Below are positions 21,272 through 58,667 of a stretch of DNA of 64,000 nucleotides, piece by piece; within the stretch, counting starts at the first letter, position 1, and each line of letters opens with the position of its first letter. The stretch covers positions 434,001-498,000 of the forward strand of contig CP073750.1 in the NCBI GenBank assembly GCA_024398135.1, in the 5' to 3' direction. Source of the stretch: a bacterium SCSIO 12643 (lineage in GTDB: Bacteria > Bacteroidota > Bacteroidia > Flavobacteriales_G > Salibacteraceae). Made by a program: the position numbers and the translations under genes. A model generated the notes under the pieces. The model worked only from the letters and a program-made list of their open reading frames with translations, was not told the DNA's origin and searched no databases.

Positions 21272-24200
21272 TTAATGACCTTTAGTTTCTCTATTGTACG
21301 TTGCTTCGTCAATTTTCTTTCCATTTTTAAAGTAGAAAACCGCACCATAGTTATACACTTCTTTCTTGTACTCATCCCCTCTACCATTGGCTACAATTAC
21401 AATTCGTGTAGTGGTTTTACTTCCTTTCTTGGTCGTTTCATTTAAACCATTTGGATATTGTTCGGCCAACTGACGGTTAAACTCCGTATCATTCTTCGCA
21501 TGGAATTCAGCCAGTTTACGTGCTTCTTCAATCTGTGCAGAGACATCACGCATCTTTTGCGTCACCACTGCATCACCCGCAATTAATTTCAGGGCCGCTT
21601 CGTATTTGTACTTCCCTTTCTCCAATTCTCCTTTTTGTACAAAGTCATCACCTTCTGCAACTAAAGCATCAAACTTTTGTTGGTTTTCTTCACGTTGCTT
21701 GGCCAGCAATGCTTCTTCCTCAGCTTTTCTTTGCGCCTCTAATTCCAGACCTTCAATCTTTTTCAACTGAACTCCCGGATAAGGTTTGTCCGCAAAAATT
21801 TGCTGTGCTGCCTGATACTCTGTTTTCGCCTTAGCGTAATCTTTGGCTAACAATGCTGCATCACCCGCTTTAATCGCTGTTTGATATTGTGCTTCTTTAG
21901 CTTCTAATTCTGCCTGTGCTTTTGCTTTTGCAGCTTCTTCAGCGGCCAATAATTCAAGCTTCTCATCAATCTGCATGATTTGACTGGTTGGATACGTCTT
22001 CCCTTCAAAAATGGTCAATGCATTTTGATATTCTGCTTTCGCACCATTCCAATCTCCAGCTTTAAACATTTGATCTGCTTTCGCTATCGAAGCTTTATAG
22101 TTTTGCTCTTTCTCAGCTAATGCCTGTGCCTCAGCTTCTGCTTTAGCCTCAGCCGCAGCGATCTCAGCTAGTTTTGTGTTGATCACTTCTATTTGAGTCT
22201 TAGGATACTCCTCTTTTGGTTTCACCTCTAATGCACTTTCATAAGCGGTTTGCGCTTCAGTATATTTCTCTAATGCCATTTGTGCGTCTCCCTCTGCCAC
22301 AAAACCATTGTATTTATCTTCAACCGCTTTTTTCTCAGCTGCTAACGCAGCAGCCGCAGCCGCAAGTTTAGCATCAATAGCCGCAATCCCATCTTTAGGC
22401 TTTTGCTCATTTGGCTTTAATTCAGATGCCGCCTGATAGTCTGCTTTTGCTAATTCCAGTTTCCCGGATTGTTGCTTCTGAACAGCACTTACCATTAACT
22501 TATCGTATTGTTTATCGATACCTTCTAACTTAGCTAATGTTTCGTTGATCGATGCAATTTGCGTTTTTGGATATTCCTCTTTTGGCTTTAACGCCAATGC
22601 CCCTTCATAATCCGTTTTTGCTTTTGCATAATCCTTATTCTCTAAAGCACCATCTGCACTTGCGATTAAACCATTGTATTGATCCTCCAGTGCTTTTTCT
22701 TTAGCTGCCAACTCCGCTGCCATAGCTGCTAATTTCGCATCAATTGCAGCAATCTCATCCTTTGGCTTTTGTTCAGCTGGTTTTAACTCAGATGCAGATT
22801 GATAATCTGTTTTAGCTAACTCCAATTTCCCTGCCTGTTGCTTTTCAGCCGCACTCGCCATCAATCTATCGTATTGCTTATCGATGCCTTCTAATTTGGC
22901 TAATGTTTCATTGATTGACGCAATTTGCGTTTTTGGATATTCTTCTTTTGGTTTTAATGCTGATGCCCCTTCATAATCCGTTTTTGCTTTTGCATAATCC
23001 TTATTCTCCAAAGCACCATCTGCACTTGCGATTAGACCATTATATTGATCCTCCAATGCTTTTTCTTTGGCCGCAATCTCAGCTGCCATAGCCGCTAATT
23101 TTGCATCAATTGCTGCAATCTCATCTTTCGGCTTTTGCTCAGACGGTTTTAACTCAGAAGCGGCCTGATAATCCGTTTTAGCCAATTCCAGTTTTCCGGT
23201 TTGTTGCTTCTCAGCTGCACTCGCCATCAACTTGTCGTATTGCTTATCGATGCCTTCAAGTTTCGCTAATGTTTCATTGATTGATGCAATTTGCGTTTTT
23301 GGATATTCCTCTTTTGGTTTTAGTGCCAATGCACTTTCATATTCAGCTTTCGCTTTTTCGTATTCTTTATTAACCATCAAAGCATCTGCACTGGTAATCA
23401 TGGCATCATACTGCTCTTTCAATGCAGCCTCTTTTTGAGCAGCCAACTCTGCTTCTTTCGCTTTCAATGCAGCCATATTTGCCAGCAACACATCAATCTC
23501 AGAAATCTTTGTTTTTGGTAAAGCCTCATCCGGCTTCAAAGCCAATGCCTGATTATATGAAGCTTTTGCCGCATCATAATCTTTATTGTTCATTTGCGTA
23601 TTTGCGGTAGCTAACAGACTTTGATAATCCTTATCCGTTTTCGCATTTGACGCTAAAATAGCGTCAATCTCTTTGATTTTAGTCTTTGGATATACCTGTT
23701 TAGAATCCATCGCAACAGCTTCGTTGTACTTTCCTTTAGACTCTGCATATTTTGATAATGCCAATAATGAATCCGCTGAAGCAATGACCGCATCGTATTT
23801 GGCTTTTCTTTCCTTTTCTGCCATTTCAGCGGCTAATGCTTTTTCTGCCGCTATACTCTTAATAATTTTATCGATCTGATCTTTTGGATATTCAATCTTT
23901 GGCTTCACATCATGCGCCATTTCGTAATTCTTACGCGCTGTTTCCCATTCTTTGTTGTCAAATGCCTCATCCGCAGCCTGAATATGAGTCGCGTACTGTT
24001 CATCCACAGATTGGTTGGCCTGCATGATGGCCATCGTTTTCTTAATCTGTTTGTCCGGATATGTTTCTTTAGGTAAAATCTCTTTGGCTGCCTCGTATTG
24101 AATCAATGCATTTTCATAATCTCCTTCTTTTAAGAAAGCATCACCATCTTTTACGGCCAACATATAATCATCATAAGCTTCTTCCGAATTAACGTCTTTT

Positions 24201-34744: not shown

Positions 34745-35607
34745 AGTATCTATTCGCATTCATAGGGTTATTTATCGCGCTTTTAGGTTTTTCTCAAAAT
34801 CCTAAGAAGTGGGTACGTGAAGGTAATGCGTCTTATAAAATAGATTCTACACAAAAAGCCATTTTGGAGTACGAAAAAGCTTTGGAGATAGATCCTAAAA
34901 TGGAAAGTGCCAAATTCAACCTTGGAGATGCGCAATATCGTTCAGGAAAATATGCTGATGCGATCAAAACGTACGAACAACTGGCGCAAACAACTACAAA
35001 TCCTAAAATCAAATCAGACTCGTATTTCAACATGGGGAATGCACATATGCAAACGCAGAAGTATCAGGATGCAATGAATGCCTTCAAAAATGCAATGAAA
35101 GCCAATCCGCAAAACTCAAAAGCCCGATATAATTATGAGTACGCCAGAAAGAAACTAGAAGAACAACAAAAACAAGATCAGCAGGATAAAGACAATCAAG
35201 ATCAAAATAAAGACGACCAGAACAAGGACGATAAAAATAAAGATCAGAATAAAGACAATAAGGATAACAAGGATCAGAACAAAGATCAAGATCAAAACAA
35301 GGATCAAAACAAAGACCAGAATAAAGATCAGAATAAAGACCAGGAAAAGAATAAAGACGATCAAAACAAAGACCAGAACAAGGACAACAAAGACAACAAG
35401 GATCAAAATAAGGATGATCAAAAATCAGATCCAAAGGATGAAAAAGGGGATCAAAAAGATCAACAACCTCAACCTGGTCAAATGTCAAAAGCTGATGCGG
35501 AGCGTTTGTTAAAAGCAATGGAGGATAAAGAGAAAAAGACACGAGAAAACGTTGCTAAAAAGAAAGCTAAAGCTGCTTCACGTAAAAAATCAGAAAAAGA
35601 TTGGTAG
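34741..35607 (+). CDS. batC: BatC, TPR protein with long Asp/Lys/Asn/Gln tail
   Basis: 288 residues. A signal peptide (to about LGFSQN) is followed by three TPR motifs (about 25-130) and then an extreme low-complexity stretch of about 100 residues made of D, K, N and Q in KDQN-like steps (about 137-240). A more normal basic end has SKADAERLLKAMEDKEKKTR. BatC is a periplasmic TPR partner in the Bat complex. The low-complexity part is probably disordered, and its length may vary between strains. The stop adjoins the batD start. Confidence 0.85.
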   Translation: MKYLFAFIGLFIALLGFSQNPKKWVREGNASYKIDSTQKAILEYEKALEIDPKMESAKFNLGDAQYRSGKYADAIKTYEQLAQTTTNPKIKSDSYFNMGNAHMQTQKYQDAMNAFKNAMKANPQNSKARYNYEYARKKLEEQQKQDQQDKDNQDQNKDDQNKDDKNKDQNKDNKDNKDQNKDQDQNKDQNKDQNKDQNKDQEKNKDDQNKDQNKDNKDNKDQNKDDQKSDPKDEKGDQKDQQPQPGQMSKADAERLLKAMEDKEKKTRENVAKKKAKAASRKKSEKDW

Positions 35608-43638: not shown

Positions 43639-44883
43639 ATGAAAAAAGTTGTTATTACCGGATTAGGAGCCATCACTCCTATTGGAAAAAATGTAAATGA
43701 ATACTGGAAAAGTTTACTTAACGGGCAATCAGGCGCAGATAAAATCACTCGATTTGATCCCGAAAAATTTAAAACCCACTTTGCCTGTGAAATAAAAGAT
43801 TATGACCCCAAAGACTATTTTGACCGAAAAGAGATACGCAAATTAGATCGTTACAGTCAATACGGGATAATCGCTGCGGATGAAGCCATTGCCGATGCAA
43901 AATTGGATTTTTCTAAACTAAATACGGACAAAATCGGAGTTATTTTCTCGAGTGGAATCGGTGGTTTTGAAACATTTGAGAAGGAAATAATTGATTACAC
44001 TCAAAAAGACTTTATCCCACGATTTAATCCATTCTTTATCACTAAAATCATTTCTAATGGCTTATCCGGATTGATTTCTATCAAACATGGTTTAAGGGGG
44101 ATCAATTATTGCCCGGTGACGGCATGCGCTTCCTCTACCCAAAGTATTATTCAGGCCTTTAATTATATCCGACTGGGAAAAGCGGATATCATTATTGCTG
44201 GAGGGTCTGAAGCACCAATTACAGAATCATCAGTTGGGGGTTTTAACGCAATGAAAGCTATGTCTACCAACAATGAGAATTTCATATCGGCCTCCAGACC
44301 TTTTGATACACACCGGGACGGATTTGTAGTTGGCGAAGGCGCAGGCGCTTTAGTCATTGAAAGCATAGATTCTGCCAGAGCAAGAGGAGCAAAAATCTAC
44401 GCGGAAATCGTAGGCGGAGGCGAAAGTTCTGACGCATATCATATTACGGGAACTCACCCGGATGGATTAGGCGCTTATCTGGCTATGGAAAATGCCATTT
44501 CTGAGGCCAATATCTCACCTGGCCATATTGACTATATCAATGCTCATGCAACTTCAACAGGTGTAGGAGATATCTCTGAGATTAATGCCATAAAAAGATT
44601 ATTTCAATCTCATTTAAATGAATTGCAAATCAGCGCCACTAAATCAATGACGGGTCATTTATTGGGTGGAACCGGTGCGATTGAAGCTATTGCTACTTGC
44701 CTCACAGTTCAATCCAACTGGATTCCTCCAACAATAAATACTACACATGTAGACGAAAGAATTCCAACAGAACTTAATCTTTCTCTGGGAAAGAAATCTA
44801 CAAAACAGGTTAACTACGCATTAAGCAACAGTTTCGGTTTTGGAGGACATTGTGCGGCTTTAGTTTTAAAGAAATATGTGTAA
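43639..44883 (+). CDS. Beta-ketoacyl-ACP synthase II (FabF-like)
   Basis: 414 residues. The thiolase-fold condensing enzyme has its catalytic triad intact: C163 ([12 protein letters not shown]), H303 ([12 protein letters not shown]) and H340 ([16 protein letters not shown]), with K335 before it. It would elongate acyl-ACP with malonyl-ACP in fatty-acid or a specialised acyl-chain synthesis. Being next to its own TetR rather than in a fab cluster suggests an accessory, conditionally expressed paralogue; no acpP or other fab gene is in the window. The TAA stop is followed directly by the 7-bp repeat array. Confidence 0.88.
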
Positions 44884-45005
44884 GGAGTTGGGAGTTGGGA
44901 GTTGGGAGTTGGGAGTTGGGAGTTGGGAGTTGGGAGTTGGGAGTTGGGAGTTGGGAGTTGGGAGTTGGGAGTTGGGAGTTGGGAGTTGGGAGTTGGGAGT
45001 TGGGA
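44884..45005 (+). repeat. Perfect 7-bp tandem repeat, about 17 copies
   Basis: The unit GGAGTTG is repeated without interruption from the base after the fabF-like stop codon to about 45005 (122 bases). The unit has no stop codon in any frame, so all three plus frames stay open through it and give Ser-Trp-Glu-Leu-Gly-Val-Gly repeats; these are not regarded as genes. Copy number could vary by slippage. Confidence 0.95.
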
Positions 45006-45448
45006 AAGGTGTTATTTCAGACGACACAAATATTATTATTCAAATAAAATTATTAACGAAAACATTGATTATATCTCACGCTCAAAAACGCTTTACTTAT
45101 TGTACGGTAATCCGAAGTGAATATATAAAACCCATAATGGGACACTGAACGAAGTCGAAGTGCCCTTACTACTCTATACTTCCACCTCAATACTCATTCC
45201 TTGTCTCTCGTTGCTCCCTACTCTACGCTTATTACAAACTAAGTATAAACCACATTCCTTATACGTAGTTTCCACATTTTTTTGATTTCCACATGAGATC
45301 AAATTGCCTTCTGAGTCCATTAATAGTTGTGACTTTTCGGTGGAATTGTTTGTCCAAAAGCACATTCTTCCATTGAAGCCTCATTTTAAAAAGCTTCATT
45401 ATCCGGAATGAATTGTTTTATTTTATAGAAACCAATACCATCAGTCCG
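45006..45448. other. Intergenic region after the 7-bp array
   Basis: No convincing gene. It contains a short ACTGAACGAAGTCGAAGTG element (45143-45161), a 10-unit degenerate heptad array (45165-45234), and a stretch at 45242-45294 with three CCACAT words and one ATACGTA that resembles the region at 8315-8360. A 63-codon minus-strand frame (45174-45365) is partly made of the array and is rejected. Confidence 0.5.
45165..45234. repeat. Degenerate heptad array, CTYNNNN x10
   Basis: CTC or CTT begins every seventh base at 45165, 45172, 45179, 45186, 45193, 45200, 45207, 45214, 45221 and 45228. The four other positions vary. It has the same 7-bp period as the perfect array about 160 bases upstream, in opposite sense. 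Confidence 0.7.
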
Positions 45449-46558
45449 ATGCAACTTTTCAAAAACATATACATCATCCTACTATGTCTTGTTATGCCAT
45501 TTGTTGTAGATTATCCGGAACCATTTGGAGCAATATCTATTGGATATGGAGTCATTGCATTGATCTATTTTATTTATACCACCACACGTAAAGACCCCAT
45601 GGATGAAGTCTTTGTTACACTGGATAAAAAATTAGACGAAGTCGATAGCTATTTAGATCAGGGAAAGGGAATTTTTGAAGTAGCTCAAACATTCAAAAAT
45701 GAAGCCGGTATTCCACCCGTACTTACCATCAAAAGTATTTTATATACCATACAAGAAGCGTGTAAAGAAGATGTTTTACCCTATACCCATGCCCTGGATC
45801 GTAAGGCTCCTTCTGATGTCGGGGTGATGATGTTATTGCAACAAATGCTAAAAGACTTTAAGAAAAAAGAACATTTTGATATCTCTGAAACCATTAAAGA
45901 GATGGATGAATTTGAAAATGTACTGTACGTAAAGGAGAATGTAAACTTTAAAATCACCAGAGAAAATGAAGAACCACGTAAAGGTTTTGGTGTTCTAATT
46001 CTCACGCTACATGAAATTCTTTTTATTCCTATGAAATGGGAGTTTCTTAAAAATCTGGATAAAGGAAAACTATTTGATTTACTGGGAGAAGCTACTTCAA
46101 GTATGCCATTTTTAAATGTGGGGTTGGCCACTTCTGAACTGTTTTTAGCATATAAAGATGCTCAAAAACCCGAAGAAATATATTTCAATGAAGAACGAAA
46201 AACAGAAATGTTAAGTCATTTTGAGATCAATAATGGTTGGCATATCCCATACCATCATGTAGATGAATTGACTTTTCCATATAAAATGAGAGGTCTAAAA
46301 GGTGTGGATCATTCATTATATGTCAGATCAGATCAAACCACGTATCAGCTTTATCACATTGAAGATAATGAGGATTTTAAAATCGAAATACTGGAACAAC
46401 TTTTATTGAGTACTTTACTGAATCAGAATATTTATTACCCGATTAATGACAAATATGATGGCCACTTTCACAAATGTGATTTGGTTCCGCATACAGAAAT
46501 CGATTACGATGATCCCAGAATGGTGGAATTTCGGGAACAGGAAATGAAGAATTCTTAA
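45449..46558 (+). CDS. Hypothetical membrane-anchored protein
   Basis: 369 residues from the ATG at 45449; the frame extends to a TTG at 45413 but the ATG is preferred. Two N-terminal hydrophobic spans (about 5-21 and 29-46) are followed by a large acidic cytoplasmic part rich in helices, with KKLDEVDSYLDQGKGIFEVAQTF and a conserved-looking end, EIDYDDPRMVEFREQEM. The family is not recognised. It lies between repeat-rich intergenic regions. Confidence 0.5.
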   Translation: MQLFKNIYIILLCLVMPFVVDYPEPFGAISIGYGVIALIYFIYTTTRKDPMDEVFVTLDKKLDEVDSYLDQGKGIFEVAQTFKNEAGIPPVLTIKSILYTIQEACKEDVLPYTHALDRKAPSDVGVMMLLQQMLKDFKKKEHFDISETIKEMDEFENVLYVKENVNFKITRENEEPRKGFGVLILTLHEILFIPMKWEFLKNLDKGKLFDLLGEATSSMPFLNVGLATSELFLAYKDAQKPEEIYFNEERKTEMLSHFEINNGWHIPYHHVDELTFPYKMRGLKGVDHSLYVRSDQTTYQLYHIEDNEDFKIEILEQLLLSTLLNQNIYYPINDKYDGHFHKCDLVPHTEIDYDDPRMVEFREQEMKNS

Positions 46559-46563
46559 AGAGG

Positions 46564-46709
46564 GTGTATTGAGTTTTGAAGGACGAGTAATGAGAGTTGA
46601 GTATTGTATTAGAATATCATAATTAAACACACGTTATACATTCCTCTACAACACTCAATTCTCAATCTTGTTTACTCATTACTCTATCCTCTTTACTGTG
46701 CGCTTCTTA
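46564..46709. repeat. Heptad-periodic inverted-repeat element, copy A
   Basis: GAG-type heptads at 46571, 46585, 46592 and 46599 (with variants at 46564 and 46578) on the left, CTC-type heptads at 46654, 46661, 46675, 46682 and 46689, with variants at 46668, 46696 and 46703, on the right. The inner arms pair over 17 bases (46592-46608 with 46647-46663, 15 Watson-Crick pairs plus a wobble). The right arm runs to the stop codon of the next gene. Confidence 0.65.
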
Positions 46710-48065
46710 CTCCAACACCACCATTCCCCTTACCGTTCCTAAACGATAGGTATAAACTCCGGTGGGTAAATGTGATATGGAAATAGAATTAACCCCGTTT
46801 ATTAAATTAGCTCTTAAAACTTGTTTGCCTAAAACATCATAGAGTTCGAATATTGAATTTTGATTATATCCGGTAACCAAATCTATATGTAGAATATCAT
46901 GTACAGGATTTGGATATACAGAAACTTCACTGGTTTCTAAAACAACATGAGGCACATCGGTTACGATTTGACACGGATTATTTGCCGGGTAATTACCCAC
47001 AGCAATACGTTTTCGAAGATAATCCTTACCACAGTTTGTTTCAACCTTTAGTTTTACTGTATAACATTCATAAACTCCCGCTGGACTATAAATATGGTTT
47101 GGATTAGCTCCCATTGAAGTATCTCCATCACCAAATTCCCAGTAAAATTTACTTCCACTACCATCATAGTAAAAATCTACGTCAAGCCCTTGAATTGAAG
47201 ACTTAATTCTTGACCCCCAATACAAACCACTATAGACATATATCACCTGTTCAAACGTATCTATCCCACACTCATTAAACGCATATAACTTAACATTGTA
47301 ACACTTCTCATTTTCAATGGTCCACGGATAAACATGCACAGGGTATTTATTTGTAGAATATAGTCCATCCCCAAAATCCCAATAAAACGAATCCGCATGC
47401 ATAGATACATTATCAAAAACAACAGTAAAGTTACTTGATGAATCAAAAAAAAGAGCAACCGGATCTAAAACCGACTCCACCCAAATGGAATCTGTACTAG
47501 AACATTGTTGCTCAGTCACGGTTACTGCATAATATCCGGTATCTGCTACTTGAATGGATGGTGTGGTATCTCCATTGCTCCATACATAAGAATCATATAA
47601 TCCGGCATCTAAAACCACACTATCATTTTCGCAATAATGTGTTGAATCGTTCAAGTCAACAGGTAATATCGTATGGATTACTATTGCATTGGTATCATTG
47701 GTCATATCACCATCCATATTACCATTGGGCCATTTGGTCCATGCTACCATAACGATATTGTTAGACGGTACGGTAACCGTTGTTAGTGCTATTTGTTCGG
47801 TTATTGACCCCGTACCACCTATAGTGTCTAGCGGTTGATATACCCACATTGAATCCAGCACCAAATTGATTTCCCAAAACACCATAAAACTATCAATGGG
47901 ATTGATTCCGTAATTGGATACTTCTGCATATACCGTATCAGTATTACCTACACATAAGGATACAGGTTGAATCCCCTGAACACCTATATCATTGGATGTT
48001 TGAGCATGGATAGCCAGCACGGATAAGATACTGAACCATACAGTTACGAGTATATTTTTTGTCAT
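46707..48065 (-). CDS. PKD-domain surface protein with T9SS sorting domain, paralogue 1
   Basis: 452 residues from the ATG at 48065 (MTKNILVTVWFSIL); a further upstream ATG at 48116 adds a basic stretch and is not preferred. Signal peptide to HAQ (about 21), a CARDB-like adhesive domain (about 25-125), an Ig-like module (LDAGLYDSYVWSNGDTTPSI, about 130-190), two PKD modules with FYWDFGDG and FYWEFGDG, and a type A sorting domain (VYPNPVHDIL to the end). It is exported by the type IX system to the surface, probably for adhesion. It is nearly identical at both ends to paralogue 3. Confidence 0.8.
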   Translation of the reverse strand: MTKNILVTVWFSILSVLAIHAQTSNDIGVQGIQPVSLCVGNTDTVYAEVSNYGINPIDSFMVFWEINLVLDSMWVYQPLDTIGGTGSITEQIALTTVTVPSNNIVMVAWTKWPNGNMDGDMTNDTNAIVIHTILPVDLNDSTHYCENDSVVLDAGLYDSYVWSNGDTTPSIQVADTGYYAVTVTEQQCSSTDSIWVESVLDPVALFFDSSSNFTVVFDNVSMHADSFYWDFGDGLYSTNKYPVHVYPWTIENEKCYNVKLYAFNECGIDTFEQVIYVYSGLYWGSRIKSSIQGLDVDFYYDGSGSKFYWEFGDGDTSMGANPNHIYSPAGVYECYTVKLKVETNCGKDYLRKRIAVGNYPANNPCQIVTDVPHVVLETSEVSVYPNPVHDILHIDLVTGYNQNSIFELYDVLGKQVLRANLINGVNSISISHLPTGVYTYRLGTVRGMVVLE

Positions 48066-48164
48066 TATTTTAAATTTAGTGGTTTTCCTTTTTTGCTTGT
48101 CAAAAAAAGAAAACAAAAAATACTTTATTTATTACGGTTAGCTCATTACTCGCCACCGTTAGGT

Positions 48165-48210
48165 CACTGAGCGTCTTGTGCTGAGCAAAGCCGAAGCAAG
48201 TCGAAGTGCC
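48165..48210. repeat. CACTGAGC...GTCGAAGTG intergenic element, copy 1
   Basis: A short element whose ends are CACTGAGCGTCTTG and AAGCAAGTCGAAGTG. It recurs at 51207-51252 with one or two differences and in reduced form at 45143-45161. Similar CTTCGAC/GCTCAGTG words are common between genes in Bacteroidota genomes. Confidence 0.6.
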
Positions 48211-48211
48211 C

Positions 48212-49573
48212 TTACTCCAACACCACCATCCCTCTTACCGTTCCTAAACTATAGGTATAGACTCCGGTGGGTAAATCTGAAACCGAAATAGAATTAACCT
48301 CATTTATCAAATGAGTTCTTAAAACTTGTTTGCCTAAAACATCATAGAGTTCAAATATTGAATTTTGATTATATCCGGTAACCAAATCTACATTTAGAAT
48401 ATCATGTGCGGGATTAGGATATACAGAAACTACACTTGTTTCTAAAACAACTTTGGGCACATCGGTTACGATTTGACATGGGTTATTTGCTGGATAATTA
48501 CCTACAGCAATACGTTTTCTAACATAATCATACCCACAATATGTTAAAGCTCTAACTTGTACTGTATAACATTCATAAGCTCCATTTGGACTATATGTGT
48601 GTACTGGCTTGGACTGTTTCGAGGTTTGCCCATCTCCAAATTCCCAGTAGAACTCTGTAGCCGATCTGGAATATGAAAAATCGACTTGCCAATTATTTAT
48701 AGAAGACCCGATACCAGAGTACCATATAGGTGGATAAACTCCGACATAAACAATTTGTCCAAATGTATCCGAACTACATATGTTTGAAGCAATAAGAATT
48801 GGATTGTAGCATAAGGAATCATGAACCGTCCAAGGATAAGTGTGAGTAGGACTTATATCGGTAGAATAAGTTCCATCTCCAAAACTCCAATAAAAGGAAT
48901 CCGCATACAAAGATAAATTGGTTAAAACTACAGTCCAAAAGCTTGATGAATCATGAAAAATCGCAACCGGATCTAAAACCGATTCGACCCAAATAGAATC
49001 TGTACTAGAACATTGTTGCTCGGTCACTGTTACTGCATAATATCCGGTATCTGCAACTTGAATGGATGCTGTGGTATCTCCATTGCTCCATACATAAGAA
49101 TCATATAATCCGGCATCTAAAACCACACTATTATTTTCGCAATAATGCGTTGAATCGTTCAGGTCAACGGGTAATATCGTATGGATTACCATTGCATTGG
49201 TATCATTAGTCAAATCACCATCTGTATTACCATTGGGCCATTTGGTCCATGCTACCAAAACGATATTGTTAGATGGTACGGTAACCATTGTTAGTGCTAT
49301 CTGAGCGGTCATTGATCCCATACCACCTATGGTATCTAAGGATTGATATACCCACATTGAATCCTGCACCAAATTGATTTCCCAAAACACCATAAAACTA
49401 TCAATGGGATTGATTCCGTAATTGGATACTTCTGCATATACCGTACCAGTATCACCCACACATAAGGATACAGGTTGAATCCCCTGAACACCTATATCAT
49501 TGGATGTTTGAGCATGGATAGTCAGCACGAATAAGATACTGAACCATACAGTTACGAGTATATTTTTTGTCAT
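48212..49573 (-). CDS. PKD-domain surface protein with T9SS sorting domain, paralogue 2
   Basis: 453 residues, starting directly at MTKNILVTVWF. Domain order is as in paralogue 1: signal peptide, CARDB-like, Ig-like, two PKD modules (FYWSFGDG, FYWEFGDGQTS), sorting domain (VYPNPAHDIL). Its second PKD module (INNWQVDFSYSRSATEFYWE) is shared with paralogue 3 but not with paralogue 1, which shows mosaic exchange among the three copies. Confidence 0.8.
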   Translation of the reverse strand: MTKNILVTVWFSILFVLTIHAQTSNDIGVQGIQPVSLCVGDTGTVYAEVSNYGINPIDSFMVFWEINLVQDSMWVYQSLDTIGGMGSMTAQIALTMVTVPSNNIVLVAWTKWPNGNTDGDLTNDTNAMVIHTILPVDLNDSTHYCENNSVVLDAGLYDSYVWSNGDTTASIQVADTGYYAVTVTEQQCSSTDSIWVESVLDPVAIFHDSSSFWTVVLTNLSLYADSFYWSFGDGTYSTDISPTHTYPWTVHDSLCYNPILIASNICSSDTFGQIVYVGVYPPIWYSGIGSSINNWQVDFSYSRSATEFYWEFGDGQTSKQSKPVHTYSPNGAYECYTVQVRALTYCGYDYVRKRIAVGNYPANNPCQIVTDVPKVVLETSVVSVYPNPAHDILNVDLVTGYNQNSIFELYDVLGKQVLRTHLINEVNSISVSDLPTGVYTYSLGTVRGMVVLE

Positions 49574-49592
49574 TATTTTATTTTTTGTTTTT

Positions 49593-49743
49593 GAGTAGTG
49601 GGGAACGCATTTTGAGTAATGAGAGTTGAGTATTGTATTAGAATATCATAATTAAACACACGTTATTCATTCCTCTACAACACTCAATTCTCAATCTTGT
49701 CTATTCATTACTCTACCCTCTTTACTCATTACTGTTCATTACT
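49593..49743. repeat. Heptad-periodic inverted-repeat element, copy B
   Basis: A near-identical second copy of the element at 46564-46709: GAG heptads at 49593, 49614, 49621 and 49628, and CTC/CTG heptads at 49683, 49690, 49711, 49718, 49725 and 49732. The inner inverted repeat is 49621-49637 with 49676-49692. It lies at the 3' end of paralogue 3. Confidence 0.65.
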
Positions 49744-51108
49744 TCACTCCAACACTACCATCCCCCTTACCGTTCCTAAACGATAGGTATAGACTCCGGT
49801 GGGTAAATGTGATATGGAAATAGAATTAACCCCGTTTATCAAATGAGCTCTTAAAACTTGTTTGCCTAAAACATCATAGAGTTCAAATATTGAATTTTGA
49901 TTATATCCGGTAACCAAATCTATATGTAGAATATCATGTGCGGGATTTGGATATACAGAAACTACACTTGTTTCTAAAACAACATGAGGCACATCGGTTA
50001 CGATTTGACATGGATTATTTGCCGGGTAATTCCCTACAGCAATACGTTTTCTAACATAATCATATCCACAATGTGTTAAAGCACGAACTTGTACGGTATA
50101 ACATTCATAAGCTCCATTTGGACTATAAATATGTATGGGGTTTGCTTGTGTAGAAGTTTGTCCATCTCCAAATTCCCAGTAAAACTCTGTCGCTGATCTG
50201 GAATATGAAAAATCAACTTGCCAATTATTTATGGAAGACTTAATTCCAGAATACCAGTTTGATGATCCATAAGACCCAACAATAGTAATTTGTCCAAATG
50301 TATCTGAACTGCATACATTCGAAGCAACTAGAATGGTATTATGGCATATAGTATCCTCATTGGTCCAAGGGTAAATATGCACAGGATCTTTATCCGTTGA
50401 ATGGGTCCCATCTCCAAAATCCCAATAAAACGAATCCGCATGCTGAGATAGATTCAAGAAAGCTACCGCAAACAAACTAGATGAATCATGAAAAAAAGCA
50501 ATCGGATCTAAAACCGATTCCACCCAAATGGAATCTGAACTAATACACTGTTGATCAGTCACAGTTACTGTATAATATCCGGTATCTGCTACTTGAATGG
50601 ATGGTGTGGTATCTCCATTGCTCCATACATAAGAATCATATAATCCGGCATCTAAAACCACACTATCATTTTCGCAATAATGCGTTGAATCGTTCAAGTC
50701 AACTGGTAATATCGTATGGATTACTATTGCATTGGTATCATTGGTCATATCATTATCCACATTACCATTGGGCCATTTGGTCCATACTACCATAACAATA
50801 TTGTTAGACGGTACGGTAACCGTTGTTAGTGCTATTTGTTCGGTTATTGACCCCGTACCACCTATAGTGTCTAGCGGTTGATATACCCACATTGAATCCA
50901 GCACCAAATTGATTTCCCAAAACACCATAAAACTATCAATGGGATTGATTCCGTAATTGGATACTTCTGCATATATCGTATCAGTATTACCTACACATAA
51001 GGATACAGGTTGAATCCCCTGAACACCTATATCATTGGATGTTTGAGCATGGATAGCCAGCACGGATAAGATACTGAACCATACTGTTACGAGTATATTT
51101 TTTGTCAT
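49744..51108 (-). CDS. PKD-domain surface protein with T9SS sorting domain, paralogue 3
   Basis: 454 residues from the ATG at 51108. Same plan as paralogues 1 and 2. Flanks, signal peptide, CARDB/Ig-like modules and sorting domain match paralogue 1 almost exactly, while the second PKD module matches paralogue 2. The stop codon is TGA, while the corresponding position of paralogue 1 is TAA. It probably arose by tandem duplication followed by gene conversion. Confidence 0.8.
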   Translation of the reverse strand: MTKNILVTVWFSILSVLAIHAQTSNDIGVQGIQPVSLCVGNTDTIYAEVSNYGINPIDSFMVFWEINLVLDSMWVYQPLDTIGGTGSITEQIALTTVTVPSNNIVMVVWTKWPNGNVDNDMTNDTNAIVIHTILPVDLNDSTHYCENDSVVLDAGLYDSYVWSNGDTTPSIQVADTGYYTVTVTDQQCISSDSIWVESVLDPIAFFHDSSSLFAVAFLNLSQHADSFYWDFGDGTHSTDKDPVHIYPWTNEDTICHNTILVASNVCSSDTFGQITIVGSYGSSNWYSGIKSSINNWQVDFSYSRSATEFYWEFGDGQTSTQANPIHIYSPNGAYECYTVQVRALTHCGYDYVRKRIAVGNYPANNPCQIVTDVPHVVLETSVVSVYPNPAHDILHIDLVTGYNQNSIFELYDVLGKQVLRAHLINGVNSISISHLPTGVYTYRLGTVRGMVVLE

Positions 51109-51206
51109 TATTTTAAATTTAGTGGTTTTCCTTTTTTGCTTGTCAAAAAAAGAAAACAAAAAATACTTTATTTATTACGGTTAGCTCATTACTCGCCACC
51201 GTTAGG

Positions 51207-51252
51207 TCACTGAGCGTCTTGTACTGAGCAAAGCCGAAGCAAGTCGAAGTGC
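51207..51252. repeat. CACTGAGC...GTCGAAGTG intergenic element, copy 2
   Basis: The second copy of the element at 48165-48210, again between the 5' end of a paralogue and the 3' end of the next gene. It has CTTGTACTGAGC where copy 1 has CTTGTGCTGAGC. Confidence 0.6.
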
Positions 51253-51254
51253 TC

Positions 51255-52814
51255 TTACTCCAACACTACCATTCCTCGGACTGTTCCTAAACGATAGGTA
51301 TAGACTCCGGTGGGCAAATCTGAAACCGAAATGGTATTCATATAAGGCTGTAACTTGGTTTGATAAACTCTTTTACCTAACATATCATAGAGTTGAAATT
51401 CATACGTATTATTTTTAGTTTTTTGAATTCCCGAAGTGATTTCTATATGTAATATGCCTTTAGATGGATTCGGATAAATTTTCAACGTTTCTATGGTTTG
51501 TGCAATTTCAGGAACACCAATGACTTCACAACCCGGTTCTAAACATCCAAAACTATCTACTTTTATCACCCAGGTATCTTGGGTCGTATCAGTTGATGGA
51601 TTTAACCACCCAGCCGCCACAAAACCGCCATCTGAAGTAGGTTCCACGTCATACAAAAAATGTTTCGTATTCCATAAATCCACTGCTTCAGGATGTCGAT
51701 ATCTTCGTTCCCAAATATGTACTCCGTCCCTAGAATATTTTGATAGTATGCCATGTAATCTAAATTTAGCCGGTTCAACAATATTGGGATTCCAAATATT
51801 CCTCTGTCCACAAGCAATTAATGAACCGTCATCCAATTCTAATATATCGTAATACTTATTGTCAATGATGGTTGCATCCTTTGTAGAAGCCGTATCATTC
51901 CATATCATATCTCCCAAGGAATCAATTTTAACAATCCATGGAGATTTTTCGTCTTTAACGCCATCATTCCGAACTCCAACCCCACCTACGAATACATAAC
52001 CTCCATCTTGTGTTTGTAAAATTCCATATGCTGGTGAATTACTTAAAATATTGCTTCCATATTCTTTTCTCCATTCTATATTCCCCAAACCGTCTAATTT
52101 GACCACCACGGGTTTCACCTTTTCTTTTGGTACTATTGTGTAATCATTTTCCGCCCCCCCTATAATAAACCCACCATCATCGCATAAAGCAATACATTCT
52201 CCATTATGGCCATTTCCTCCTAGCCAAAGTGATTTTTGCCATAATTCATTCCCCAGACTATCCATCTTTACTACAAAAACTTCTTCATCATTGGGATGGG
52301 TTCCTGATTTTTGGATTGTTCCTACCGCAATAAAATTTTTATCCGGTAACTCTTGTATTTCATTTATTACTACAAATTGATATTGACCAGTATTCATATT
52401 ATGAAAAATCATTTTTCCATTCAAGTCATACTTCATCATTCCATAATGATGCTTACCAGAACCAATATCCAATATTGTAAAAGCTTGGTATAAAGTAGAA
52501 CCTTTAGACTTTTTAAAACTATTTACATATATCTGTTTATCTAAAAAATGGATGCTATCAGTATTTGAAATCATATTACCATTCGCATCAAGCTTACCTA
52601 TTTTATTCCACCATGTACCGTCCAACTTATCTAACGACCATCTAGAAACAAAATAACCAGAAGATTCGTTGACAATAGAAAATGATCCACTCGCCCAAGT
52701 CCCTGAATCCGGAGGATAACGCATATTAAAATAGGTTTGCCCCCAAAGAATTTGGGGACAAACCATTAAAAAGCATAATATTTTAATGAATAACTTCAAG
52801 TGGTTGTTTTTCAA
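51255..52814 (-). CDS. Secreted beta-propeller-like protein with T9SS sorting domain
   Basis: 519 residues. A signal peptide (to about LWGQ, residue 25) is followed by a series of propeller-blade-like repeats with D-G-G-F/Y-(I/V) turns (DDGGFIIGG, QDGGYVFVGG, SDGGFVAAGW) and KxDSLGxxxW words, typical of Bacteroidota delta-60/T9SS propeller proteins. The sorting domain begins IYPNPSKGIL and ends exactly as in the three PKD paralogues. The ATG lies 32 bases inside the end of the upstream 1702-residue gene, so the two are translationally coupled. Confidence 0.75.
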   Translation of the reverse strand: MKNNHLKLFIKILCFLMVCPQILWGQTYFNMRYPPDSGTWASGSFSIVNESSGYFVSRWSLDKLDGTWWNKIGKLDANGNMISNTDSIHFLDKQIYVNSFKKSKGSTLYQAFTILDIGSGKHHYGMMKYDLNGKMIFHNMNTGQYQFVVINEIQELPDKNFIAVGTIQKSGTHPNDEEVFVVKMDSLGNELWQKSLWLGGNGHNGECIALCDDGGFIIGGAENDYTIVPKEKVKPVVVKLDGLGNIEWRKEYGSNILSNSPAYGILQTQDGGYVFVGGVGVRNDGVKDEKSPWIVKIDSLGDMIWNDTASTKDATIIDNKYYDILELDDGSLIACGQRNIWNPNIVEPAKFRLHGILSKYSRDGVHIWERRYRHPEAVDLWNTKHFLYDVEPTSDGGFVAAGWLNPSTDTTQDTWVIKVDSFGCLEPGCEVIGVPEIAQTIETLKIYPNPSKGILHIEITSGIQKTKNNTYEFQLYDMLGKRVYQTKLQPYMNTISVSDLPTGVYTYRLGTVRGMVVLE

Positions 52815-55800
52815 ATAAAACTTCGTTTTGGTAAATTAACACAAAATACGATCCGGGCGCAAGGTTTTGTGTCATTAAGTTTATGACCATCCCATTTTGC
52901 ACCTGATCACGGTGGGTCAACATCACTTGACCAGCCGTATTGATCACCTGAATCTGTACAGATGTTTGTGCCTCTATATTTTGCATTTTTAACGTGACAT
53001 AACTATTGGCCGGAACAGGATACATCTCCATTGTCTTTTGTGGTGTTTCTACCCTTGGTGCACGTGGATTACGCCATGCTTTTTTCCCTGCGAGAGCATC
53101 CGGCAATACCGGCCAATACGTTTCCTCATTTAACCACATTAAATAGTTTTTTGCCATCCGTCCTCCTTTTAATTCCGGTTGCGCAGCCAACTGTTCTAAA
53201 GCAGATTTTTGTGATTCACTCGGATTTTGTACCGCATCGTTCTGAATCAAATTGATCCAGGTATTGTAATAATCATTCAACACATCATATTGATTGGTCG
53301 CCCAATCTCCCAATTCAAATTTACCCGGAATCGCATTTTTAACGATCTGTGCATCTTCCAGATTTCCACGCGTGACCAGATACGCCACACTGTTCCAATC
53401 GGCCTCCGGAGTATGGAGTTGCTGATTGTAAATCAATAAACTATCATCATATGGATCAATAGAATCTGCACGCCAGTCTACATAGATTTGACGCATCGCT
53501 TCACGGGCATCTTGCATGGCACTTGCCATTTCAGCTTCTAATACATCTTTTTGCGTTTGCCCCTCATAAATTCCAAGTAGCGTATTGATCATATATGCCG
53601 GCATCGGATTGGTTTTGGTTTCCAATACATGCATCACTTCTTCATTCCGTACCGCATGTGGATTGACCATAATGACATCATGCAGTAACGCATTGGACAA
53701 TACACCTTCTTCAATGGTTTCCATAATCACTTCGATACTTAGAGGAGAGGCATTAATCAACTCCGTTCGTAAATCCCAGGCCGTTTGGGCATTGCTACTT
53801 TGCACACTATTTAACAAACCATAGGTATCTCCCCCATCAATCGTACTCACATATACATATTTGGCCTGGCTATATGCATTTAATGCCCCATCAAAATCAT
53901 TTCGGATCAGTAACGAACGTCCTCCGGTCGCCAACCCCTTAGGATTTTGATCCATGACATTTCCCAACCTGGAAGGACAGTGGTCATTTATATTGAATGT
54001 AATATTCACTTGAGAAGTAGTCACATTTCCACTAATTTTAAGCGGTTCAAATACATACCCTCCATCATCTGCTCTGTGATAGTAAATTATTGGATTAGCC
54101 CCATCATTTGCTATATGCCCTTCCGGGTTTACTATATTGGAAGTAAACATATTATCTACCGGACGGTTATTGCCCCCTTGGGCTCCTGCAATTCCTCCTG
54201 GTTGATCTATGGTATACACATTAAAGTCTCGATATTTAGAACCAGCCAATTCGTTACACCCATATTCCAAACCTTTATTTGGTTCACCTGGATTAAAATT
54301 AGTACCAAAAGCCGTATTGCCTACATATACTTCTTTAAAGGTATTTTTATAAATGGCATTATTTCCAGCCCCTGAGTTCTTTACTACAATCCCACGGTCA
54401 TCACCCAGAAATGGAATCCCAACTGGTGGTTCCGGTGGAGAATAATTGATCATGGTATTCTCTATAAAATTTTCCTGCACGGTATATTGATCGGAATTCT
54501 CCAGAAATATCGCAGTCGGTTTATGAAACAAAAAATCATTGGTAATTTCAAAATGGTTATTGGTCACCACCGCATAATCTACAGCAGATGTGGCCACCCC
54601 AAAACGACAATCCGTAAACTCTGCATGATCTACCACAAAATGGTAGTCCAATCCGGTACTTAAAGCCGTAATTCCTGAAGCCAGATGTTTAAATGTTGAT
54701 TTTTTATGGCTCGTACATGGGATATTGCTATTGGTACAATAATCGGTCACCACAAAATGCGCATTATGCAGGTAAATACCCGCTACTTCCAAAGGTTGTC
54801 CTGAGGTGTTTTTAAAATCACAACCGTAAAATTGTACTCCTCGTACTTCCCATGCCGTAATCATTTGATCACGTGGGGGCTTTACATCAAACATATAATT
54901 GGCATCAATTTCGAAGATACAGTCTTTAAAACGACTCGCATTATCCATCACCGTAGAAGTGCCTGGGCTATGGTTTTCAAATTTGGCAAATGCAATGGCT
55001 TTTCTATTATTTAAAAAATGTACATTGGTGGCATTAATCACGCCTCCTCCATTGACATATACGCCATCCTGATCACTATTTATCGCGATATCTGCTTTTT
55101 CAATAGTTGAATTTTGGATTACTACTTTTCCGACCAAACATCCTGAGTTACAATATTGCGTTTGTGCATTTGGATCTGACCAGATTTCTATTCCTCCCCA
55201 AAATGCATCACAATAACTAGTTAATATAGAATTGGAAACATTTAATTTCCCACCTTTTTTTACAATGATCTTGGCTCCTCCGGCCATAGAGATGGTGGCT
55301 CCGGTAATATTAAGGGTCGCACCTTCTTCAACTACCACATCAGAATAAAATGTTTGATTAGTTGTCCAGTTTACAGTAGCGCCTCCGGTTCCTACTTTTT
55401 TCTGCGGCCATAAATCACTTAAATCTGCTTTATAAATCCCATGTCCAATCGTTGCTGCATATAATTCGCGGGTACAATATTTGACTTCAAAGTTTTTTAC
55501 AATCGTTGGTGGCAATCCATTATTGTAACATTCCCAATCAGAATTGTTATCTAATACACGGTAATACACCCCTAAATCCGTTGCAGCCAATAAAACATTA
55601 TTCGGATAGGCATCAATCATCTCCAATTCATGTACTGCCACATTCGGCAACGATCCGGTAAAATCAGCCCAACTGTTTCCTCCACCCAACGAACGAACCA
55701 CTTTATACGCTCCGGGAACAACCCCACTAATAGACAAATACACATGATTTTGATTGTCCGGATCAACCAAAACATCTGTAATATGTTGGTCACCGTTATT

Positions 55801-57891
55801 ATAGTTTAATATATGATTAGAACCAATCGTTAATGTAGAAGACATATCTGTCCAATCGGTGCCCGATGGCCCTCCCTTGGTTGTCGTCTTATATAATGAT
55901 GCATTATTCTCTCCGGTTCTAACATTTGATACCCAAATTACATTTTCATCACTATGCGACATCGCAATTCCGGTGATTTTATTATTTCCGAAGTTGGATA
56001 GTTTAGTATAAATTGGAGGGCCTTGAGTAACAAAACTGGTTTGGAAGTTTACATTCTTATGAGCCGTCAAATCATATTCAAATAAATCGTACTGCCCTAG
56101 CAAAGCTCGATCTCCATGTACGGGATTTTGAATTTGCGGACATCCCATAAAAACCTCATTATTACTTTGAGAAAAGGCGATCGTAAAAGCCTGCTCGTTT
56201 TGTCTATCAAAATAATAAGGATCACCGTTAACATGAAATAAACCATAATTTTCATCATCATCAAAAAACAATGCAGGTGATCCATCTCCACCACGTAAAA
56301 ACCCAAACCAAACTCCATTTTTATTCCAATGAGTACCAATATCTAAAGCACCAGCAATAATATCGCTATGACTTTCCGCAATTCCAACATCATAATACTC
56401 CCCAATCGTCATATTTTTATGTTCTAGTATCCAAGTGCTCCCTTGGTCTGTTGAACGGTGGAGGCCACCATCATGCGCTACCCAAATTTCTTCAACTCCA
56501 TTGCGTATAATAATTTCAATGTCTCTTACATCGTCATGAAAACCAGGAACTGTTTTCCACTTATTTCCTGTATTTAAATTGGTTTTAAGAAATTCAACAG
56601 CAGCATTATAAAATACCTGATTATTATTTGAGGTTAATTTTGAAAATGCGATATCATTTCTATAAAAATTCATTCCCGTTCTAGAGGTAGCAGAATTCGT
56701 ATTAAACACACTGGCCCAGGTAATACCATAATCATCTGATTTAATGACTTCTACTACGGAACCTTCTCCATAACTGGCTATAATACTTTGCGGATTATTT
56801 CTAGAAATATCAATCGCAATACGTTTTACGTTATGTGGATTTGTTTTAATCAAGTTCACCGTTTGCCAATTGTTTGCATTATTTACTAGTTGCAAATTAT
56901 TTGTCGCATCCAGATCGTGATACATAAGTTCCGCTTCTTGAAAAGCAAAAACATCATGAGTACTGATAAAAATACGTCTTGGAGCACCATTTTGAGGCGC
57001 AACAAATCTAATATCTCTAATCAGTTTTCGGTAGGTTGAACCCGGAGCAGGATTGGGATGTGTTGAAAACACTTCTATAAAATTATTTCCATCATATCGA
57101 TACAATTCATTTCCTACACTGGCAAATAAAGTATAGGGAGGAAAATCAGTATACACCACTGCTATAGCCTCCTTATCATACTGATTATTCGAAAAATTAA
57201 TTCGCTCCCAGGTATCTCCTCCATCCGTGGTATGAATCAAACCAATTCCATACCCATGCATTCCTTGATATCCGCCATAAGCTGTGGCACAATAGATTTC
57301 ATTGGGGTTGGTGGGATGAATCGCTATTTCCTGAATTCCCAATGCCGGGAAACCAATTTTATCGGTAATATTCTCCCAATTATCCGTCCCAATGGTTTTA
57401 CGCCATAAACCACCAGATTCTGATCCAGCATATACCAAATTATTCACTTTATCTATAGCCACACTAGTTAGCCTTCCATTATTCCCCATATTAATGGCAT
57501 AAGAATTCCCTTGATTTGGCGCTATAAGATTATCTACCATGTTAGGTCCCAAACTTTGCCATCCTTTTGATGGCCCTACACCACAACCATTAATATTGGG
57601 TAAAGGTTGAGCCAATGCTGCAGATTGTGTTAAAAAACCGGGATAAAAATGATCTACAGTTCCATCTGCTCCCAAATATGGACCATAATACGCTTGATGA
57701 CGGTTATAGGCTTTAATCAAACTTTGATCTACTGTTCCTCCTCCGGTCACATAATTATTCATCTTTTGTTGCAATTCGAGGTAATCGCTTTCCGGGTTGG
57801 CCATCATACTTCTGATGGAATCTACGGGTTGTGTAAGTCCTACCTGGCTTAAACACCATAGGGCACCTACTAAAAGGTAGTTTTTCTTCAT
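52783..57891 (-). CDS. 1702-residue BNR-propeller and beta-helix protein with T9SS sorting domain
   Basis: Signal peptide (1-20). Residues of about 140-850 carry sialidase/VPS10-type Asp-box blades (TTDGGDTWERI, KSDDYGITWASV, STDQGSTWILE), as in extracellular BNR/Asp-box proteins. Residues of about 870-1300 look like a right-handed parallel beta-helix (ATLNITGATISMAGGAKIIVKKGG, then many V-x-x-N-x-F turns). A helical region of about 1380-1600 precedes the type A sorting domain (MYPVPANSYVTLKMQN). This is a giant cell-surface protein; a carbohydrate-binding or adhesion role is likely, but no catalytic residues were verified. Confidence 0.75.
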   Translation of the reverse strand: MKKNYLLVGALWCLSQVGLTQPVDSIRSMMANPESDYLELQQKMNNYVTGGGTVDQSLIKAYNRHQAYYGPYLGADGTVDHFYPGFLTQSAALAQPLPNINGCGVGPSKGWQSLGPNMVDNLIAPNQGNSYAINMGNNGRLTSVAIDKVNNLVYAGSESGGLWRKTIGTDNWENITDKIGFPALGIQEIAIHPTNPNEIYCATAYGGYQGMHGYGIGLIHTTDGGDTWERINFSNNQYDKEAIAVVYTDFPPYTLFASVGNELYRYDGNNFIEVFSTHPNPAPGSTYRKLIRDIRFVAPQNGAPRRIFISTHDVFAFQEAELMYHDLDATNNLQLVNNANNWQTVNLIKTNPHNVKRIAIDISRNNPQSIIASYGEGSVVEVIKSDDYGITWASVFNTNSATSRTGMNFYRNDIAFSKLTSNNNQVFYNAAVEFLKTNLNTGNKWKTVPGFHDDVRDIEIIIRNGVEEIWVAHDGGLHRSTDQGSTWILEHKNMTIGEYYDVGIAESHSDIIAGALDIGTHWNKNGVWFGFLRGGDGSPALFFDDDENYGLFHVNGDPYYFDRQNEQAFTIAFSQSNNEVFMGCPQIQNPVHGDRALLGQYDLFEYDLTAHKNVNFQTSFVTQGPPIYTKLSNFGNNKITGIAMSHSDENVIWVSNVRTGENNASLYKTTTKGGPSGTDWTDMSSTLTIGSNHILNYNNGDQHITDVLVDPDNQNHVYLSISGVVPGAYKVVRSLGGGNSWADFTGSLPNVAVHELEMIDAYPNNVLLAATDLGVYYRVLDNNSDWECYNNGLPPTIVKNFEVKYCTRELYAATIGHGIYKADLSDLWPQKKVGTGGATVNWTTNQTFYSDVVVEEGATLNITGATISMAGGAKIIVKKGGKLNVSNSILTSYCDAFWGGIEIWSDPNAQTQYCNSGCLVGKVVIQNSTIEKADIAINSDQDGVYVNGGGVINATNVHFLNNRKAIAFAKFENHSPGTSTVMDNASRFKDCIFEIDANYMFDVKPPRDQMITAWEVRGVQFYGCDFKNTSGQPLEVAGIYLHNAHFVVTDYCTNSNIPCTSHKKSTFKHLASGITALSTGLDYHFVVDHAEFTDCRFGVATSAVDYAVVTNNHFEITNDFLFHKPTAIFLENSDQYTVQENFIENTMINYSPPEPPVGIPFLGDDRGIVVKNSGAGNNAIYKNTFKEVYVGNTAFGTNFNPGEPNKGLEYGCNELAGSKYRDFNVYTIDQPGGIAGAQGGNNRPVDNMFTSNIVNPEGHIANDGANPIIYYHRADDGGYVFEPLKISGNVTTSQVNITFNINDHCPSRLGNVMDQNPKGLATGGRSLLIRNDFDGALNAYSQAKYVYVSTIDGGDTYGLLNSVQSSNAQTAWDLRTELINASPLSIEVIMETIEEGVLSNALLHDVIMVNPHAVRNEEVMHVLETKTNPMPAYMINTLLGIYEGQTQKDVLEAEMASAMQDAREAMRQIYVDWRADSIDPYDDSLLIYNQQLHTPEADWNSVAYLVTRGNLEDAQIVKNAIPGKFELGDWATNQYDVLNDYYNTWINLIQNDAVQNPSESQKSALEQLAAQPELKGGRMAKNYLMWLNEETYWPVLPDALAGKKAWRNPRAPRVETPQKTMEMYPVPANSYVTLKMQNIEAQTSVQIQVINTAGQVMLTHRDQVQNGMVINLMTQNLAPGSYFVLIYQNEVLFEKQPLEVIH

Positions 57892-58256
57892 AGTTAAATA
57901 TAATTTTAGTTTTAAGGCTATAAATCTATCGCTTCATTTTAATATTTCATATACGTATAAACACGTATTTTATAAAATAAAGAAAAAACCATAAAACACA
58001 ATCAAAACACTAAAAAACAATATTTTAAACATTTAAAATTTCGATTTAAGAAAATAGATAGAATTGAAAAAAGAAAATATCAACGTCAGTTTTGAAGTAT
58101 TAGAGTTAAAAACAACAATAAGTTAAAATTACATAAAGGATCAAAAAGAAACATTTATTACATATTTATTATCAGTTGTGAGTAGTGAAAGTTATTTTTT
58201 ATATAACTCAATACTGTTAACTCCCTACTCGTGCCCCAACACTCTTCCCTCATCAC
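57892..58256. other. 365-bp intergenic region between the giant surface-protein gene and the fur-like gene
   Basis: No gene seen. Near its left end lies ATACGTATAAAC (57951-57962), the same 12-mer as at 8315-8326, followed by ACGTATTTTATAAAA. The right end carries GAG heptads (58180, 58187) and a CTC-heptad array that continues into the 3' end of the fur-like gene. Confidence 0.45.
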
Positions 58257-58269
58257 TCACTTCTTACAA
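58207..58269. repeat. Degenerate heptad array, CTCNNNN x9
   Basis: CTC (or CTG, CCC, CTT) begins every seventh base at 58207, 58214, 58221, 58228, 58235, 58242, 58249, 58256 and 58263. The last units cover the stop codon and final codons of the fur-like gene. Confidence 0.65.
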
Positions 58270-58667
58270 TTCTCACAAACACCAGTAGCAACCACCTCTA
58301 TTTGATGGATGTCATGGTTGGATAGTGGAATTTGAAATGAAGATTCTATTTCCAAACAAGATACCGTTTTACATTCCACGCACTTAAAATGAATATGTTC
58401 ATGGTGATGATGGGTTGAATCACAAGTATGTTCACACAAAGCGTAATAGGTATCGTTTTCGTCAATGGCTGCTTTATGAATAATTCCTTTATCCGTTAAA
58501 CTGTTCAGGGTTCTATACAGTGTAACTCTATCAAAATTAGTTAGTTGTTTTTGCAGAACGGTATACGGAATCGCACTCTCAAATTCAGAAATAATCTGTA
58601 ATACTTCAAGCCTTATCCCCGTGGCTTTCAAATTCCTATTTCTAAGTAATGCTTTTAATTCCTCCAT
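58257..58667 (-). CDS. Fur-family metalloregulator
   Basis: 136 residues. The winged helix (about 10-70: NLKATGIRLEVLQIISEF and DRVTLYRTLNSLTDKGIIHKA) is followed by a histidine cluster (HHHHEHIH, 86-93) and two zinc pairs, C96-x2-C99 and C131-x2-C134. Fur-family members bind DNA when loaded with iron, zinc or another metal. The gene is the last of a lipoprotein/TonB-receptor operon whose promoter has a Fur-like palindrome, so Zur-like or Fur-like autorepression of metal uptake is likely. Which metal cannot be decided. Confidence 0.85.
   Translation of the reverse strand: MEELKALLRNRNLKATGIRLEVLQIISEFESAIPYTVLQKQLTNFDRVTLYRTLNSLTDKGIIHKAAIDENDTYYALCEHTCDSTHHHHEHIHFKCVECKTVSCLEIESSFQIPLSNHDIHQIEVVATGVCENCKK

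Follow-up and report, generated by a model that had tools for sequence, protein, structure and literature searches.

Arrays of seven-base units in the window

The host genome, from a member of the Bacteroidota, is a single contig of 4.12 Mb, and the stretch of it analysed here, a 64-kb window (434001-498000 of the contig), carries several intergenic arrays with a 7-bp period. The most regular is a perfect (GGAGTTG)17.4 array on the plus strand (44884-45005), listed as (GGAGTTG)17 in the first-pass annotation, which immediately follows a FabF-type gene (43639-44883) and its TAA stop. It can also be read as GGG-N4 repeats (GGGAGTT) and is, by pattern, capable of forming a G-quadruplex. Next to it lies a degenerate GAGNNNN array on the minus strand, with CTC on the plus strand (45165-45234), comprising nine units with the core broken in three; it is joined in phase to a REP-like palindrome (45139-45165) that reads GGGCACTTCGACTTCGTTCAGTGTCC on the minus strand. 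An inverted array follows, the GAG half of which (46560-46610, plus strand) begins directly after the stop of a 381-aa ORF (45413-46558), while the CTC half (46644-46709, minus strand) enters the stop of a convergent gene (46707-48116), its first heptad being GAG TAA G. A second copy of this inverted array, to which no strand is assigned, is found at 49603-49743, 3' of the gene at 49744-51159. The last array (58171-58262, minus strand), which is mainly CTC on the plus strand (58203-58262) and weakly GAG in its left part, abuts the stop of a Fur-like gene (58257-58667).

In the region 46707-51159, three paralogous genes stand in tandem; they encode secreted proteins with near-identical ends, probable substrates of type IX secretion, and each has an inverted heptad array or a REP directly after the stop. 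In the gene at 48212-49573, a REP-like element (48151-48216, minus strand) directly follows the stop and occupies the place of the array in the paralogues. Repeats of other kinds also occur in the window: a tandem repeat of 366 bp at 22302-23371 (2.9 copies, 84% matches) and, at 35234-35405, AAAGATCAGAAT-like units in overlapping 12-, 18-, 24-, 30- and 42-bp repeats that resemble a coding repeat.

Four degenerate stretches with a strict period and three kept positions had been described besides the perfect array. The 7-bp phase is present in all four (45165-45234, 46560-46709, 49603-49743 and 58203-58262), but "strict" overstates its regularity: core breaks affect 3 of 9, 4 of 9 and 2 of 8 units. 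The arrays annotated at 46564 and 49593 are copies of one array, lying 3' of duplicated genes and differing by substitutions and indels, including one core change; the window therefore holds three independent degenerate sites and not four.

By RNA folding, the two long inverted repeats noted at first pass are confirmed, with z-scores of -5.0 for 46559-46706 and -4.2 for 49600-49743. At 58171-58256 the signal drops to z -2.5, and 45163-45234 yields no structure whatever (MFE 0). The inverted repeat at 46560-46706 consists of two convergent genes with one sense-oriented array each, and this accounts for the clearest arrangement of GAG on the left and CTC on the right. An intrinsic terminator combines a G+C-rich hairpin with a U run; 46559-46706 folds, but no T run lies behind it.

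Period, core and distribution

The cluster of 7-bp arrays in the window is real and does not arise from chance. Seven GAG/CTC chains of at least three units occur in the window at period 7 and none at periods 5, 6, 8, 10 or 11, and an order-3 Markov simulation of 8 Mb with the same composition contained no four-unit run and no locus with five of eight units in phase. Period 7 also exceeds other periods in the sampled genome and in the relative G013.

Within the genome, the arrays are sparse and the window is a cluster of them. Eight sites have at least four in-phase GAG, among them a (GAGTATT)11 array at 576.0 kb and strict arrays with variable units at 184.18 kb and 3965.07 kb; counting weaker sites, there are about 14 arrays genome-wide, five of them within the window, and a 720-kb sample taken away from the known sites contained none. 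The first-pass annotation had named two outcomes that would count against it, a confinement of lag-7 enrichment to the window, or an absence from close relatives together with an origin in one local duplication; instead, the phase recurs elsewhere in the genome and in many relatives, although two array-bearing genes have same-genus orthologues free of arrays. Of 60 relatives, 23 have five in-phase GAG at period 7, and with the threshold raised to six, 107 of 296 phylum members have matches. In a scan of species genomes, the matches listed for six-unit arrays include Bacteroidota, cyanobacteria, Chloroflexi, Verrucomicrobia, Proteobacteria and others, a handful of chance matches being expected at that collection size.

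The sets of heptads are specific to each genome, with spacers such as ATGC, ATTC, ATTG and AAAC in G013. The relative G042 has 1274 matches for five in-phase GAG, and its sampled DNA also contains lag-7 arrays with other cores, such as GGGTTTC and CAGTTGG. With GTG as a control core, this genome gave no array; 16 of 60 relatives did, and the units of their arrays were mostly identical. Heptamer arrays are thus common in general, and it is the degenerate ones that favour GAG. Period seven is preferred but not exclusive, as a period-8 GAG control gave fewer but real arrays (9 of 60 relatives). In G009, period-8 arrays with a GAGTG core and variable spacers occur alongside period-7 arrays, and there the core seems to be kept independently of the period.

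Across six arrays of this genome, mismatches to the consensus affect 9 of 159 core cells (6%) versus 101 of 212 cells in the other columns (48%). The loci were collected by a GAG search, which makes the core constancy partly a matter of ascertainment, though runs of 9-10 units exceed the 4-6 units searched. In the strict arrays, GAG is intact in 9 of 9 units (184.18 kb) and 10 of 10 (3965.07 kb), whereas roughly half of the cells in the remaining four columns deviate and hardly two units are alike. One explanation is neutral decay, in which perfect arrays such as (GGAGTTG)17 and (GAGTATT)11 represent the young state. Perfect and degenerate arrays do occur in the same genome, broken cores are found in the window, and the two duplicated window copies have diverged by substitutions and indels, once within the core. 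The untouched GAG of the strict arrays amid variable columns makes neutral decay distinctly unlikely: against uniform decay, the hypergeometric p is about 1e-6 for each array (assuming independent cells), and a very conservative minimum-change count gives 0.0065 for the 3965-kb array and 0.011 for the 184-kb array. The earlier choice between decaying old arrays and selection for the phase is thereby narrowed: for the strict arrays, decay alone from a single ancestral unit can be rejected, and a core-favouring process stands. The data support some process that favours the GAG core, with selection as one candidate. Some higher-order repeats of 21 bp in other genomes show that groups of heptads get duplicated.

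Arrays at the ends of genes

Two arrays had been said to run into stop codons. The contact is real and involves more than two, at 44883 and 46558 on the plus strand and at 46707, 49744 and 58257 on the minus strand. In this genome, array ends touch the stops of FabF-type, secreted-protein (with Val-Glu or Leu-Glu ends), ABC permease and Fur-like genes, and the last codon, the stop and one further base often form an in-phase heptad, as in GTGTAAG, GAGTAAG, GAGTAGT and GAATAGA. Taken over 97 named loci, in-phase identity to the array starts at the stop codon and does not reach back into the coding sequence. When all loci are considered against ORFs of 200 aa or longer, called mechanically and without gene annotation, the GAG strand is the sense strand in 22 of 25 arrays that begin 1-14 nt after a stop, versus 24 of 54 at 15-150 nt (Fisher p 2e-4). 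Arrays adjoining a stop follow TAG in 16 cases, TGA in 10 and TAA in 4, versus 322, 295 and 722 overall. Intergenic loci number 143, versus 58 within mechanically called ORFs, and all eight GAG runs of this genome are intergenic. The arrays of G013 lie mostly upstream of starts, in divergent gaps, so that a location at 3' ends is not universal. The (GAGTATT)11 array lies inside a 152-aa frame on the minus strand (L022:9772-10230) that would encode a seven-residue repeat, NTQYSIL; this frame is probably spurious.

A period that is not a multiple of three could serve as a ladder of stop codons, heptads like TGAGTAA repeating stops across all three frames. Arrays do begin at stop codons, and many units here read GAGTAAT, GAGTAGT or GAGTGAT. 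However, across genomes T precedes GAG in 43 of 232 cases in arrays abutting a stop (ORFs of at least 200 aa) versus 425 of 1273 elsewhere, hence without enrichment, and the perfect GGAGTTG array has no stop in any frame. We regard such a ladder as extremely improbable.

Comparison within the genus bears on the age of the arrays. A concatenated protein query gave usable same-genus orthologues, in G001, for only two array-bearing genes, those of FabF (73% identity) and the ABC permease (74%). Neither orthologue has an array after its stop, which places the gain, or the loss, of these arrays inside the genus. The C-terminal residues and stop position of the permease are unchanged relative to the G001 orthologue, indicating that the array follows an intact stop and did not shorten the gene. 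A search with the 381-aa gene (45413-46558) gave no same-genus match; only three genomes matched, one of them this genome, and the gene was of no help for synteny.

We considered whether a REP/RAYT-type mobile system produces the arrays as a by-product, depositing or carrying them with REP palindromes. This genome has 32 REP-like palindrome matches and one Y1 transposase gene, and four arrays are joined directly to a REP, always with the GAG strand leading into CTTCGACT. For most arrays, however, the nearest 75 bp are free of REPs, and most REPs stand without an array; arrays are also widespread over many phyla with unrelated sequences, and shared tolerant intergenic sites would give similar clustering. 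The arrays themselves are not REP palindromes and also occur free of REPs, in which they differ from REP elements with RAYT (Y1) transposases. Such an origin therefore appears very unlikely. A cluster of REP-like palindromes (L316:4535-5160) lies about 2.5 kb from the sole Y1 transposase gene; REP clusters close to the transposase gene are usual for RAYT loci.

The GAG/CTC phase might be kept because transcribed CTC-strand RNA is a loading site for Rho, and CTC placed antisense after stops would then halt antisense transcripts that invade genes. Descriptions of rut sites name stretches of C over G with YC dimers 9-13 nt apart (PMC9160355). The arrays have these features (C-rich, G-poor, unstructured RNA with spaced YC dimers) at the level of sequence: RNA of the CTC strand gives an MFE of 0 for the degenerate arrays at 45165 in the window and at 184, 352, 3275 and 3965 kb, every second heptad provides the YC-N9..13 spacing, and by C minus G, 9 of 12 array windows rank in the top 0.1% of the sampled genome and all 12 in the top 1%, a skew that is partly a consequence of how the arrays were found. 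Mostly, CTC lies antisense to the gene that the array abuts, and Rho is present in this genome. Against this stand the G013 arrays upstream of starts and the 45165 array, in which CTC runs in the direction of both flanking genes. To our knowledge, most cyanobacteria lack Rho though they are rich in heptamer arrays, which weakens Rho as a general reason. It is possible that the arrays block antisense transcription via Rho, but Rho loading seems an unlikely reason for the phase to be kept.

Relation to known heptamer repeats and proposed origin

The first-pass annotation found the arrangement unfamiliar beyond the heptanucleotide arrays of cyanobacteria, but arrays of this class have been described from cyanobacteria, Xanthomonas, Beggiatoaceae and Bacteroidota (PMC4692102, PMC4679880). 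The arrays described here are degenerate members of this known, poorly understood class of bacterial heptanucleotide arrays. They are less ordinary in two respects: a triplet persists amid four variable bases, and they tend to begin at stop codons in the sense orientation. STRR heptanucleotide repeats of heterocystous cyanobacteria such as Calothrix (cited in PMC4692102) are likewise tandem heptanucleotides at many loci per genome, and the present arrays share with them head-to-tail 7-bp units at several loci per genome. STRR repeats are defined by particular units, and the literature consulted describes for them no fixed three-base core with free positions. Near-identical units are found in the arrays at 44884 and 576 kb but not in the degenerate arrays, which are therefore a variant, and not plain members, of the STRR type.

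The TAACTGA repeats of Beggiatoaceae, Cyanobacteria and five Bacteroidetes (MacGregor 2015, PMC4679880) resemble these arrays in being intergenic, in occurring in Bacteroidota and cyanobacteria, in often mixing heptamers and in being absent from the same gaps of close relatives. They differ in having a fixed unit and, in the Beggiatoaceae genome studied, in lying mostly just upstream of start codons; the TAACTGA unit is not among the heptads listed for our arrays. A like placement is reported from Xanthomonas and Nostoc, where GGGAATC and GGGGA(C/T)T heptameric G-quadruplex repeats of unknown function, which prefer four units, have the G-rich strand as the coding strand within 50 bp of stops, some overlapping the stop (Rehm et al. 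2015, PMC4692102). Both kinds are 7-bp, intergenic and sense-oriented at stops (here 22 versus 3 within 14 nt). The Rehm core, however, is GGG, whereas ours is GAG with four free positions, and only the perfect 44884 array could form a canonical G-quadruplex. We accordingly rejected the phase as a simple G-quadruplex feature: the GAG arrays lack four runs of at least three G, and only 44884, read as GGGAGTT, fits. Units that form no quadruplex also start in the sense orientation at stops, so it is improbable that this placement generally rests on quadruplexes.

We propose, with a probability of roughly 0.6, that the arrays arise by 7-bp duplication seeded at gene ends, with units that diverge while the GAG/CTC phase is maintained. 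Slipped-strand or tandem duplication in steps of 7 bp (and 21 bp) would create the arrays. Seeding would take place at the stop codon or immediately behind it, where duplicating a length not divisible by three would spare the protein, and the units would then diverge. The phase may be maintained by continued duplication that needs the core for re-pairing, or by selection on a strand-asymmetric 3' end. Where two convergent genes each acquire an array, an inverted repeat would result. As to function, Rho might load onto the C-rich, unstructured RNA of the CTC strand and so keep antisense transcription out of the gene. That the arrays originate by duplication is fairly clear, by inference. Counted against seeding at gene ends are the placement in G013 and the arrays inside mechanically called ORFs; against duplication alone, the dissimilar units of the strict 184-kb and 3965-kb arrays.

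A broader reading would make the arrays phylum-wide "phase-coded" gene-end elements, with GAG (CTC) every seven bases, free spacers, genome-specific dialects and, in some genomes, period eight, selected through a sequence-reading factor on the strand after stops, such as Rho on antisense RNA. We consider this speculative and rather unlikely.

Bacteria have several widespread kinds of unexplained repeat, and heptamer arrays are one of them. Degenerate arrays separate the kept part of the unit from the free part, which perfect arrays cannot do, and they extend the sense placement at stop codons from the Rehm G-quadruplex heptamers to units unable to form quadruplexes. The question of whether the phase is kept by the mechanics of duplication or by a factor that reads it thereby becomes testable.
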